Source: a candidate division WOR-3 bacterium
Lineage (GTDB): Bacteria; Hydrothermota; Tepidihabitantia; SM23-42
Direction: 5' to 3'
Length of the DNA: 46,321 bases
Assembly (NCBI GenBank): GCA_011052815.1
Contig: DRIG01000061.1
Coordinates: forward strand, 1 to 46,321
In this document: positions 6,429-34,521 of the stretch, piece after piece
How the letters are laid out: every line of letters begins with the position of its first letter
Position numbering within the stretch: position 1 is the stretch's first letter
The notes under the pieces: model-generated
The model's database searches: none
Seen by the model: the letters and a program-made list of their open reading frames with translations, nothing else
What the model was told of the DNA's origin: nothing
Position numbers and translations under genes: made by a program

Positions 6429-7091
6429 CACATATTCCATAACTTTCGTTATGGTGTGGACCATCTCTTCACTTAATTCCCAGATTTTGTTTAATTTGAA
6501 GAAGCCTTTTTCGTTCAGCAGTATTCATTGTCATGGCTGTTTTAATAATCTTTACCAGACCGTCGGTGGTGAGATGTTCTCTTCGCTTCATGCATTGAAT
6601 AATCCGTCTGAACTTTCTGAAATCAACGTTTTTCTTCGTCTTCAACGGATGCCTCTCAAAGAAGTCGCAAAGAGATTCGAGACAATTGAGTTTCCGAATT
6701 CGAAAACACCATCTGTCGCCATGGTTTCGTCGTACTACACCGCATTTGAAAAACGCTTTTAATGCGTAAAGAATTTGTTTATCCCGTTCGTGTTGGACAA
6801 CTGTAAATTCAGGAAGCACTTGATATCCTGTTGTCATCTCTGGATGTCTGAGAATCGAAACATGGAAACATCCTTCTCCATCAACAAAACCTATAATCCA
6901 ATCGTCACTGATCTTCATAATACCTCCTAAGGAACTAAATGCTCAGCGTATGGCCTCTGAGGATCTTCTTTTTATAGAATTTCCTGCGGATTATCCAATC
7001 CTTGACATTTTTACGGGCTGATGTCTACCAGCTTCGTAGTCAAGGCTCTAAGGATTTTCCCGCATACAGCCGAGTTCAGGCAGCTGTTGCT
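6429..7091 (-). mobile_element. Group I intron in 23S rRNA (site L1931), 663 bp
   Basis: The exons read CCTAAGGT, then intron, then AGCGAAATTCC, which places the insertion after the base equivalent to E. coli U1931. The 5' exon ends in U and the intron ends in G, as required for group I splicing. An IGS-like GCCU near the intron start can pair with exon AGGU (P1). An R-like element (CTCAGAGGCCATA, complement of 6948-6961) and an S-like element (AAGAGATGGTCC, complement of 6458-6469) can form P7. The endonuclease gene sits between R and S, i.e. in the P8 region. Group I introns at L1931 are known from Thermotoga 23S and organelles; I-CeuI-type enzymes target this same segment. Confidence 0.88.
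6469..6918 (-). CDS. Intron-encoded LAGLIDADG homing endonuclease
   Basis: A 149-residue protein with a single LAGLIDADG-type motif near the N-terminus (WIIGFVDGEGCF, residues 7-18), so it should act as a homodimer like I-CreI. Conserved family features follow: a QVLPEFTVVQHERDKQIL strand-helix region and a C-terminal basic helical tail (NTAERKRLLQIKQNL). It has its own Shine-Dalgarno (AGGAGG) just upstream, unusual within an rRNA transcript but common for intron ORFs. Its 3' end abuts the intron S element. It would cut intronless 23S genes at the insertion site to spread the intron. The length is normal for a single-motif enzyme. Confidence 0.92.
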   Translation of the reverse strand: MKISDDWIIGFVDGEGCFHVSILRHPEMTTGYQVLPEFTVVQHERDKQILYALKAFFKCGVVRRNHGDRWCFRIRKLNCLESLCDFFERHPLKTKKNVDFRKFRRIIQCMKRREHLTTDGLVKIIKTAMTMNTAERKRLLQIKQNLGIK

Positions 7092-8589
7092 ACCTTAGGA
7101 CCGTTAGAGTTACGGCCGCCGTTTGCCAGGGCTTCAGTCGGAAGCATGATCCCGGGCTAAACCGAAGTCCATCCCGGGACTAACAACCTTCTTTAACCTT
7201 CTGGCACCGGGCAGGTGTCAGTCCCTATACTTTGCCTTACGGCTTAGCAGAGACCTGTGTTTTTGTTAAACAGTCGCTAGAGCCCTTTCACTGCGCCCTG
7301 CTATTCATCATAACAGGGACCCCTTCTCCCGAAGTTACGGGGTTAACTTGCCGAGTTCCTTAACGAGGGTTCTCCCGAGCACCTTAGGATATTCACCTCG
7401 CCCACGTGTGTCCGTTTCCGGTACGGTCATCCTGATTTCTGACATAGAGGCTTTTCTCGGCTGAATCTCGAAGCGAGTTTGTGACCTTTTGGGTCTCCCC
7501 ATCACACATCAAGGTTAAGAGACACTGGATTTTCCTGGCATCTCCCTTGAAGTGCTTAGATCCTGTATTCCAACACAGGACTCGCTTCTACCATCAGCGT
7601 CCCCCCATAGTTCATAACGAAACCAAGACGGTAGCCGAATATTAACGGCTTTCCCATCGCCTACGCCTTTCGGCCTCAGCTAAGGCACCGACTAACCCTG
7701 GGCGGATTAACCTTCCCCAGGAAACCTTGGGCTTACGGTGTCTCGGTTTTTCACCGCGATTATCGCTACTTATGCCGGCATGATCACTTCCATTTCGTCG
7801 ATTCCGACTCGCGTCGAAACTTCAACCTAACATGGAACGCTCCCCTACCTCCTTACACCTACGAATAGATGTAAGAACCGCAGCTTCGGTGATTGATTTG
7901 AGCCCCGGTATATTTTCGGCGCAAAGTGGCTCGGCTGGTGAGCTGTTACGCACTCTTTAAATGATGGCTGCCTCTGAGCCAACATCCCAGGTGTTTAAGT
8001 CACTTTACATCCTTTACCACTTAATCAATTCTTAGGGACCTTAGCTGGCGGTCAGGGTTATTCCCCTCTCGGCAATGGAGCTTATCCCCCACTGCCTCAT
8101 TCCTGGACTTATAAGTAGTAGCATTCGAAGTTTGACTGGATTTGAACCCCGAAGGGTCCTCCTCGGATCAGAGCTCTACCACTACTACTGAACATCCAAG
8201 ACTGTCCCTAAAGACATTTCGGGGAGAACCAGATATCACCCAGTTTGGTTAGCCTTTCACTCCTACCCACAGTTCATCCGAAGATATTTCAACATCCACC
8301 GGTTCGGACCTCCATTCCGTGTCACCGGAATTTCATCCTGACCATGGGTAGCTCACTGGGTTTCGGGTAATATCCCAACCTACTAAGTCGCCCTGTTCAG
8401 ACTCGGTTTCCCTACGCCTCCTCCTGATACTTTCGTAGCAGGATTAAGCTTGCAGGTCAGGGTAACTCGCCGGCTCATTATGCAAAAGGCACGCAGTCAT
8501 TCTGATTGCCCCCCGGAATTGCTTCCAGGGGATCAAAACTCCTGCTGATTGTAGACGTATAGTTTCAGGTTCTATTTCACTCCCCGCCA

Positions 8590-32638: not shown

Positions 32639-33055
32639 TTATACATCAAAGACAATCGTGGCTTCATAACCGTTTTTCTGCTTTTTTACTGTCAGATTAT
32701 GGTAGGTGACATTTTTGATATCGGTTTTTATTTTATGCCTTTTCAAATCAAAGAGGTCGCCGTTTATCCGTGCGGAAAGTTTTAACTGCTGGAGTGAAAT
32801 ATCGTAATTCATCGGGATAAATCTGTGAACCGAAAAGTTATAGAGCAATTCCCGACACCAGTCGATAAGCAGTTCTTCAAGATTTTCGGCTTCAACTACT
32901 ATTTCGATTTCTTTCTTTATCGCCAGTTTTCCGGATATCTGGATTTCAAAGATTGCCTGAGCAGTGTTGATAAACAGTTCTTCTACGGTTGAGCCGAAAA
33001 CCCTGATGCCGAGGTCGGCCGTGTGATTGAGATATTCGAATTTTTTCCTCGCCAT
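32639..33055 (-). CDS. Archease
   Basis: A 138-residue protein. FEYLNHTADLGIRVFGSTVE at the N-terminus and LEELLIDWCRELLYNFSV contain the conserved Asp/Glu of the archease fold. It ends YEATIVFDV, matching the metal-binding C-terminal Asp of the family. Archease activates the RNA ligase RtcB by speeding guanylylation; rtcB is not in this window. I chose ATG 33055 over the longer frame from 33097 because the promoter's +1 falls at 33055. Confidence 0.9.
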   Translation of the reverse strand: MARKKFEYLNHTADLGIRVFGSTVEELFINTAQAIFEIQISGKLAIKKEIEIVVEAENLEELLIDWCRELLYNFSVHRFIPMNYDISLQQLKLSARINGDLFDLKRHKIKTDIKNVTYHNLTVKKQKNGYEATIVFDV

Positions 33056-33061
33056 TTCCAC

Positions 33062-33090
33062 AGTGTATTCAAAATAGAGTAGAATGTCAA
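33062..33090 (-). promoter_or_regulatory. Promoter of the archease gene, leaderless start
   Basis: TTGACA (33085-33090), a 17-bp spacer and TACACT (33062-33067) on the minus strand. The ATG begins 6 bases after the -10 box. Confidence 0.68.
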
Positions 33091-33169
33091 TAAACACAAT
33101 TGTTGAATTATTACACTGGGTACTTGATTCTCGATATTGGATGAAACGGAGAATAAAAGATTGTTATTG

Positions 33170-33207: not shown

Positions 33208-34521
33208 ATGGATAGAAAAGAAAATCTCTATGAAAAAAACCTTACCCGTTTAAAGAAGATCGCCGAGAAAAAGGGTTATGTCTTCAACTCCAATGAGGAC
33301 TGGGTGAAACAGGTAATCAGGTTGATGACGAATAACTTTGAAGAGTATGGAAAATATTTTTGTCCCTGTAAACAGCACCATCCCGTGGACCCAGAGGTTG
33401 ATGTCGTCTGTCCCTGTCCGACCCTTGATAAGGAGGTTGCGGAAGAAGGTTTTTGTCACTGCCGGCTGTTTTATCGTAAAGGTTTTGAGAAGAAACAGAT
33501 GGATATTCTCAAGACCATTACCTGTCCTGGCTGAGCGTCCAAGATGTCAGCTGCGCAGTTGGCGCAGGCGCTTGCAATCCTACCGCGGCCAAAGGATAAA
33601 AACCTCCTCGTGGGCGTAAATACTGCTGATGACGCGGGTGTTTATAAAATCAGTGCAAACTCGGCTGTTGTATATACGGTTGACATTCTTACTCCGGTGG
33701 TCAGGTCTCCTTATCTGTACGGCAAGATCGTCGCCGCCAATTCTATTTCTGATATCTATGCAATGGGAGGCGACCCGAAACTCGCTCTTAATATAATAGG
33801 TTTTCCCGACAACGGAGATCCGGAGACCCTGGGTGAAATTCTAAGAGGCGGTCATGAAAAGGCTCAGGAGGCGGGTGTGACCATTCTCGGCGGACATACC
33901 TTTGTCACCAAAGAGATAAAATACGGCCTTTCGGTTATCGGCTATATTCATCCGGATAAGATCATCACGAATGCCGGAGCAAAGCCCGGTGATGTTATTG
34001 TTTTGACAAAACCGATCGGCAGCGGGCTTCTTATCCAGGCCGTTCTGGTCGGTGAAGCCGAAGGAATCGACTTCACACCGGTGGTTAATGCAATGACGGC
34101 CCTGAACCGTGATGCTTCCCTTGCAATGAGAAAAGCCGGGGTCAATGCGGCGACCGATATCACGGGATTCGGACTTATCGGACATCTGGTTGAGATGGCT
34201 GAAGCAAGCAGGGTCGGCATTGAACTGGATGCCTCCCGGTTTCCTATCCACAAAGGCGCACTGGAAATTCTCGGTAAAGGCGTGGAAGATCCCGGGATCA
34301 CCATGAACCTGACCTCATTCGATAGTCGCGTGGACAGAACCGCGGTTGATGAGTCCATTGGTAAGATAATATTCAGTTCCGAGACCTCAGGTGGTCTGGC
34401 GATCGCTCTTCCTGAGAAGAATTTAGAGGTTTTCAGAAAGCACTATACGGGTCCTGCTCCGGTGATTGGAAGGGTTACCGGAGAGAATGCGGGCCAGGTG
34501 ATTGTCAAAGACCGGTTTTGA
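33208..34521 (+). CDS. selD: FTR catalytic-type domain fused by an in-frame UGA (Sec) to selenophosphate synthetase
   Basis: One frame of 437 codons with a single TGA at codon 109 (33532-33534). Residues about 1-100 match the ferredoxin:thioredoxin reductase catalytic subunit: three Cys pairs FCPCKQH, VCPCP and FCHCRLFY, which in that family hold a [4Fe-4S] cluster and a redox disulfide. Next comes TCPG-UGA-ASKMSAAQLAQAL, aligned with the SelD active site (E. coli GAGCGCK): UGA falls on C17 and Lys on K20. The rest is a normal SelD, with LLVGVNTADDAGVYK, SDIYAMGGDPKLALNIIGFP, LGGHTFVTKEIKYGL and ATDITGFGLIGHLVEMA. So UGA is read as selenocysteine, making selenophosphate from selenide and ATP. 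Translation could alternatively also start at in-frame ATG 33499, giving SelD alone; termination at UGA would give FTR alone. Confidence 0.88.
33532..33534 (+). other. Predicted selenocysteine codon (UGA) at the SelD active site
   Basis: TGA lies between CPG and ASK codons in the selD frame, with SelD homology continuing directly after it and an SelD-like catalytic Lys three codons on. Cys or Sec is the normal residue here. Confidence 0.88.
33551..33567 (+). promoter_or_regulatory. SECIS-like hairpin after the UGA
   Basis: CTGCGC (33551-33556), loop AGTTG (33557-33561), GCGCAG (33562-33567): a perfect 6-bp stem with G/U residues in the loop, the loop starting 23 nt after the UGA. Bacterial SECIS hairpins bound by SelB lie within about 16-37 nt. 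Confidence 0.65.

Follow-up and report, generated by a model that had tools for sequence, protein, structure and literature searches.

Selenophosphate synthetase (SelD) fused to a helper domain is already known, with Ndh-SelD and NifS-SelD fusions (PMC2398784, PMC4561486) and a methyltransferase fusion in Naegleria (PMC4561486) having been reported, and with SelD-like proteins of the Thermoproteales carrying acylphosphatase-like domains (PMC4210487). The N-terminal bacterial fusions in the published survey are Cys-type, except for one NifS-SelD (PMC4561486). Here we describe an FTR catalytic-type [4Fe-4S] domain as the N-terminal partner of SelD in an anaerobic bacterium of candidate division WOR-3 (GCA_011052815.1, referred to as G000), encoded in a 46,321-nucleotide stretch (contig DRIG01000061.1) that was analyzed as a whole and that we call the window. 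Our search of open-access full texts (subscription papers were outside the scope) turned up no FTR-SelD fusion, and within that literature FTR as a partner of SelD appears unreported. The first-pass annotation, made from the sequence alone, had claimed that the known fusions involve NADH-dehydrogenase-like or NifS-like domains and that no report of an N-terminal FTR-type domain was known. The former holds, with the methyltransferase and acylphosphatase-like fusions to be added, and the latter holds for the published surveys and the open-access literature searched.

The closest described systems each share part of this architecture. Ndh-SelD has an N-terminal redox domain on a SelD whose active site holds a Cys-x-x-Cys/Sec pair (PMC2398784, PMC4561486), but Ndh is an NADH-dehydrogenase-like FAD flavoprotein and the reported examples are all Cys, whereas FTR-SelD has a [4Fe-4S] domain and Sec. 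The Ndh-SelD profile TIGR04369 was not met (140 bits versus 700, with the SelD part alone matching), and no FAD or NADH-dehydrogenase-like Pfam domain was detected. NifS-SelD of Geobacter sp. FRC-32 is similar in its N-terminal partner, CxxU active site, and Sec-type SelD (PMC2398784, PMC4561486); NifS, however, is a PLP cysteine/selenocysteine lyase that mobilizes selenium, whereas the partner here is an electron-transfer domain, and Pfam detected no class-V aminotransferase/PLP domain in FTR-SelD, so that the test for NifS-SelD was not met either. The FtrB double selenoprotein (NF041072) has an FTR catalytic-type domain, a selenium context, and a similar cysteine/Sec framework, but both of its redox residues are Sec and it has no SelD, whereas the redox residues in FTR-SelD are Cys (NF041072 profile, 40 bits versus a cut-off of 160; not met). 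By sequence, the FTR domain has its nearest solved relatives in 4tpu, which was deposited under the name rubredoxin, and 7pwe; both are FTR-like and lack SelD. Standalone Sec-type SelDs of WOR-3 (CAGU/CPGU-ASK), in turn, lack the FTR domain, and in several of these genomes FTR has its own gene, located downstream of selD.

One reading frame for an FTR domain and SelD

With TGA read as U, positions 33208 to 34521 of the forward strand encode 437 residues with a single internal UGA at codon 109 (33532 to 33534) and a terminal TGA stop at 34519 to 34521. Residues 13 to 97 (33244 to 33498) meet the family test for the FTR catalytic chain (PF02943, 54.4 bits versus a cut-off of 22) and include six cysteines, C52-P-C54, C68-P-C70, and C83-H-C85 (33361 to 33462), which are invariant in the alignments. 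By reference to spinach and Synechocystis FTR, we take four of these to be cluster ligands and C54 and C85 to be the redox cysteines; FTR of plants and cyanobacteria pairs this catalytic chain with a variable chain (FtrA). Residues 104 to 404 (33517 to 34419) meet the test for SelD (TIGR00476, 320.9 bits versus 125), with the Pfam parts AIRS at residues 141 to 246 and AIRS_C at residues 259 to 434 (to 34509). The motif C106-P-G-U109 (33523 to 33534) forms the CxxU active site; in alignments with Escherichia coli and Aquifex SelD, the stretch T-C-P-G-U-A-S-K falls on their active-site region, placing UGA at the catalytic position, and the lysine that follows the catalytic Cys/Sec in SelD (UxxK) is present. 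The SelD part is complete, and the FTR domain is attached directly to its N-terminus, a few residues upstream of Sec, without an extra linker domain. The domains, frame, and coordinates of the feature are thus confirmed. An AlphaFold2 model of the full-length protein, built on an 85-row alignment, reached a pLDDT of 95 and a pTM of 0.92 (a model based on a 10-row alignment, with a pLDDT of 52, was set aside in its favor), and Foldseek matched it to Aquifex SelD (2yye, TM 0.92 by target length), meeting the test for the SelD/AIRS fold. Elsewhere in the window, an archease gene adjoins the fusion on the opposite strand (32639 to 33097; the assignment comes from a Pfam match of a relative's homologous gene), and a group I intron lies in the 23S rRNA gene (6437 to 7145, reverse strand).

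We searched 147 genomes of the WOR-3 phylum and 39 Calditrichota genomes for this architecture. Besides the window genome, 10 WOR-3 genomes carry both domains in one frame with exactly one TGA, which falls at the same codon (G066, G067, G072, G077 to G080, G091, G092, and G081, where the contig breaks off), and 7 of the 39 Calditrichota genomes have the same architecture, each with one TGA, giving 18 genomes in two phyla (11 WOR-3 and 7 Calditrichota). The 10 full-length WOR-3 fusions, window included, are 62 to 74% identical to the window protein over its full length, and in all of them the six FTR cysteines (CPC...CPC...CHC) and C106-P-G-U109-A-S-K112 are invariant. A scan of named genomes gave candidate division WOR-3/Ca. 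Stahlbacteria as hosts, with the Calditrichota records adding Ca. Hatepunaea meridiana and Calditrichaeota AABM5.125.24; no relative was found among the viral contigs searched. In 8 of the 17 fusions checked (6 of 11 in WOR-3 and 2 of 6 in Calditrichota) there is no in-frame ATG, GTG, or TTG between the FTR C-x-C motif and UGA, so that a separate Sec-type SelD could not begin there. Met98 (33499 to 33501) is a possible secondary start that is an ATG in the window, G066, and G072 and is not conserved. In those eight fusions FTR and SelD cannot be separate genes, and the conservation of the whole frame goes beyond chance. These 18 conserved Sec-type fusions compare with a single Sec-type N-terminal SelD fusion in the published survey (PMC4561486). 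The first-pass annotation had proposed an FTR-type domain joined to SelD in one frame through a UGA lying exactly at the SelD active-site position (CPG-UGA-ASK), a claim that separate FTR and SelD genes in relatives, with a stop and a new SelD start, would have refuted. Both parts held by frame, profiles, alignment, and conservation, and in the relatives FTR and SelD share a reading frame in which UGA keeps its codon position.

Reading of UGA109 as selenocysteine

The window genome (97.6% complete) encodes tRNA-Sec (77.4 bits), selB (350 bits), and selA (by PF03841), all on contig C30; the absence of SelB and tRNA-Sec, which would have counted against the earlier proposal of Sec reading, is thus not observed. 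A bSECIS stem-loop (33550 to 33569, forward strand) begins 15 nt past UGA and has AGUUG/A as its apical loop. Across 23 sequences, pairing holds in 83.9% of cells and six of seven pairs vary on both sides, with a covariation score of 0.225 versus 0.076 in shuffles (0 of 500 shuffles as high, and all slid controls lower). The leucine encoded in the loop is TTA or TTG in 22 of 22 genes, compared with 29% for leucines farther downstream, and synonymous identity is 0.70 at codons +4 to +13 past UGA versus 0.32 to 0.40 farther downstream, confirming a constraint at the RNA level. In all relatives examined (the 18 fusions as well as standalone SelDs), an in-frame UGA occupies the SelD catalytic Sec/Cys position, and the SECIS, CxxU motif, and SelD sequence are almost identical between the fusions and the standalone Sec-type SelDs of WOR-3. 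Decoding of UGA109 as selenocysteine is supported by the tRNA-Sec/selA/selB set, the covarying bSECIS, and the conserved position; incorporation of selenium itself is inferred. Matches to the FTR-SelD protein in G000 consist, besides the fusion, of one standalone FTR and of hits too weak to list, which leaves the fusion as the sole recognizable SelD of that genome. The SelD part would make selenophosphate from selenide and ATP as the selenium donor for tRNA-Sec charging, although catalysis is likewise an inference.

Two further observations on selenoprotein genes were made in these genomes. A candidate new selenoprotein of about 79 residues (MPKYLITLPK...ISS-U-KAV...; L052, G087:C1:1369487-1369723), with a weak likeness to SCO4226-like/DUF4242 proteins (PF14026, E of 7e-5), lies between selD and FTR in WOR-3 genus g10; it occurs in 19 of the 147 genomes, the window genome not being among them, and all listed copies but one have a single in-frame TGA. 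A divergent second SelD paralogue, in which AAGU takes the place of CxxU, is present at G072:C17:80174-81184 and G120:C116:20139-21098, with a CPGU-type SelD adjacent in the same genome.

Gene neighborhoods and origins of the fusion

The Calditrichota fusion lies directly downstream of selB in at least five of seven genomes (G148, G150 to G153), and its searched flanks show, beside selB, no other member of the selenium-linked cluster of WOR-3. Downstream of the fusion in the WOR-3 genomes G072 and G066 lie an SsuA/SaoX-like substrate-binding protein, a permease, an ATPase, and a second FTR. In the window genome, these transporter genes and the second, standalone FTR (C30:27309-27566) terminate a same-strand run that holds selB and selA, together with a BadF activase, URO-D methyltransferases, two HGD-D proteins, RACo, a corrinoid protein, and a SAM methyltransferase. 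The ABC transporter (G000:C30:24596-27313, reverse strand) is related to SaoA/SaoP and SsuA/SaoX and linked to selA, selB, and FTR, but its proteins score below the curated Sao cut-offs (268 versus 360, 142 versus 295, and 40 versus 300) and are therefore Sao-like rather than members of Sao. Of the 147 genomes, 15 give strong matches (E < 1e-100) to the substrate-binding protein, and every one of these also has a SelD match. In genus g10, selD is standalone and FTR lies about 0.6 to 1 kb downstream on the same strand.

Aside from the fusion, we observe that an HGD-D protein (2-hydroxyglutaryl-CoA-dehydratase-like and distantly double-cubane-like) and a BadF-type activase are embedded in sel clusters on contig C30 of G000 (L049, L050), in L051, and in L060, where the order is selD-HGD-D-BadF-selA-selB; the pair adjoins corrinoid methyltransferase genes. 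A selenium-related role for it is conceivable.

In a tree of 63 SelD domains, WOR-3 and Calditrichota fusions form two groups with standalone SelDs in between, and a single origin of all fusions is rejected (lnL difference of 83.5, p-AU of 1.65e-54), which points to a possible repeated origin of the fusion. In the tree of the short FTR domain, one group of all fusions is not rejected (p-AU of 0.113). That tree places fused FTRs in one clade (support of 100/100), the CPCKQ clade, together with the standalone FTRs from WOR-3 selenium clusters; the sampled archaeal and planctomycete FTRs fall outside it. Standalone members of this clade lie in selD/selA/selB gene clusters, beside selD in genus g10, and also next to genes for HGD-D, BadF, a corrinoid protein, and the ABC transporter. 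The SelD tree is most simply read as two fusion events, a possibility that we put forward tentatively, since an old fusion with losses or an exchange of FTR domains is not excluded. A repeated origin, if true, would argue for a functional link between FTR and SelD.

Proposed electron supply to SelD and rival readings

The reading that we favor, at a probability of roughly 0.58, is that electrons from ferredoxin pass through the FTR disulfide to the CxxU site of SelD or to its selenium; the donor, the electron flow, and selenium as target are all inferred. A single selenoprotein would be made by decoding UGA109 as Sec under control of the bSECIS. Its FTR part would take one-electron equivalents, putatively from ferredoxin, via the [4Fe-4S] cluster and the redox disulfide C54/C85, and would hand them on as a dithiol to the active-site pair C106/U109, an internal transfer for which the model gives no distance between C54/C85 and U109. 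The transfer may prevent a selenenylsulfide state of C106/U109, reduce bound selenium to the selenide level that SelD phosphorylates, or both. The intact FTR cysteines, the CxxU motif, and the linkage to sel genes support such a ferredoxin-fed mechanism, and a precedent for thiol-driven selenium supply exists in thioredoxin dithiols, which reduce selenite and support selenoprotein synthesis (PMC8538045). The earlier suggestion that FTR reduces or delivers selenium thus remains an inference, aided by gene context. Counting against this reading, standalone SelDs of this class also carry CAGU/CPGU, even in genomes without a fused FTR; a fused FTR is therefore not required for a CxxU-type SelD, and CxxU is rejected as a signature of the fusion. 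An ordinary thioredoxin reductase of the NADPH type (370 bits) is also encoded in the window genome, and its presence counts against a strict need for FTR and leaves FTR as a replacement for thioredoxin reductase unsupported.

Several other readings can be weighed against this one. The strongest, which remains possible, accepts the fusion and Sec but has FTR serve another partner, such as a thioredoxin-like protein, a selenium carrier, or the selenium-linked cluster (the Sao-like ABC transporter, corrinoid methyltransferases, and HGD-D/BadF reductase), with the tether to SelD providing only a local hand-over of selenide. The canonical FTR substrate is thioredoxin, which favors this alternative, as do the neighborhoods of the standalone FTRs of the same clade; on the other hand, FTR is joined straight to the SelD N-terminus close to Sec, and the Calditrichota fusion sits beside selB without the rest of the cluster in its searched flanks. 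Less likely, in the absence of expression data, is that UGA acts as a selenium switch, with termination at low selenium freeing a functional FTR with a role of its own and full FTR-SelD being made when selenium is present. The FTR domain does finish cleanly upstream of UGA, and UGA recoding in E. coli is only 30 to 40% and needs enough selenium (PMC4513850), so that a released FTR fragment is to be expected. However, a standalone FTR is encoded elsewhere in the window genome, and free FTR need not arise by termination; the same dependence on UGA is, moreover, common to all Sec-type SelDs. The switch had been raised in the first-pass annotation and is not shown, although it cannot be dismissed. 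Nearly ruled out is a pair of proteins in which FTR terminates with UGA and SelD begins anew from Met113, 9 nt past UGA, without the catalytic Sec. An ATG is indeed found there in the window and in several relatives, but it is absent from the G066, G072, and G077 fusions, and only G151 has one in the Calditrichota set; such a genome would keep no active SelD despite its selA, selB, and tRNA-Sec. With the start codons not conserved, the UASK motif invariant, and the SECIS covarying, we reject this two-gene reading.

A bolder version of the ferredoxin-fed reading is possible and no more than that: FTR-SelD would be the final step of a dedicated, ferredoxin-driven pathway of selenium assimilation in anaerobes. 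In it, the SaoA/SaoP/SaoX-related ABC transporter would take up an organoselenium compound, corrinoid methyltransferases and the ATP-driven HGD-D/BadF reductase would remove its methyl groups and reduce it, and electrons would be supplied at the SelD active site by the FTR clade, with the FTR-SelD fusion having arisen twice. The route of selenium delivery to SelD is incompletely known (PMC13188914), and it is an open question by what means SelD acquires selenide, of which cells tolerate only very low free levels, and how its Cys/Sec site stays reduced. The natural joining of SelD to a disulfide reductase of the ferredoxin-dependent type points to one particular source of electrons and brings the question within reach of tests on a single polypeptide.
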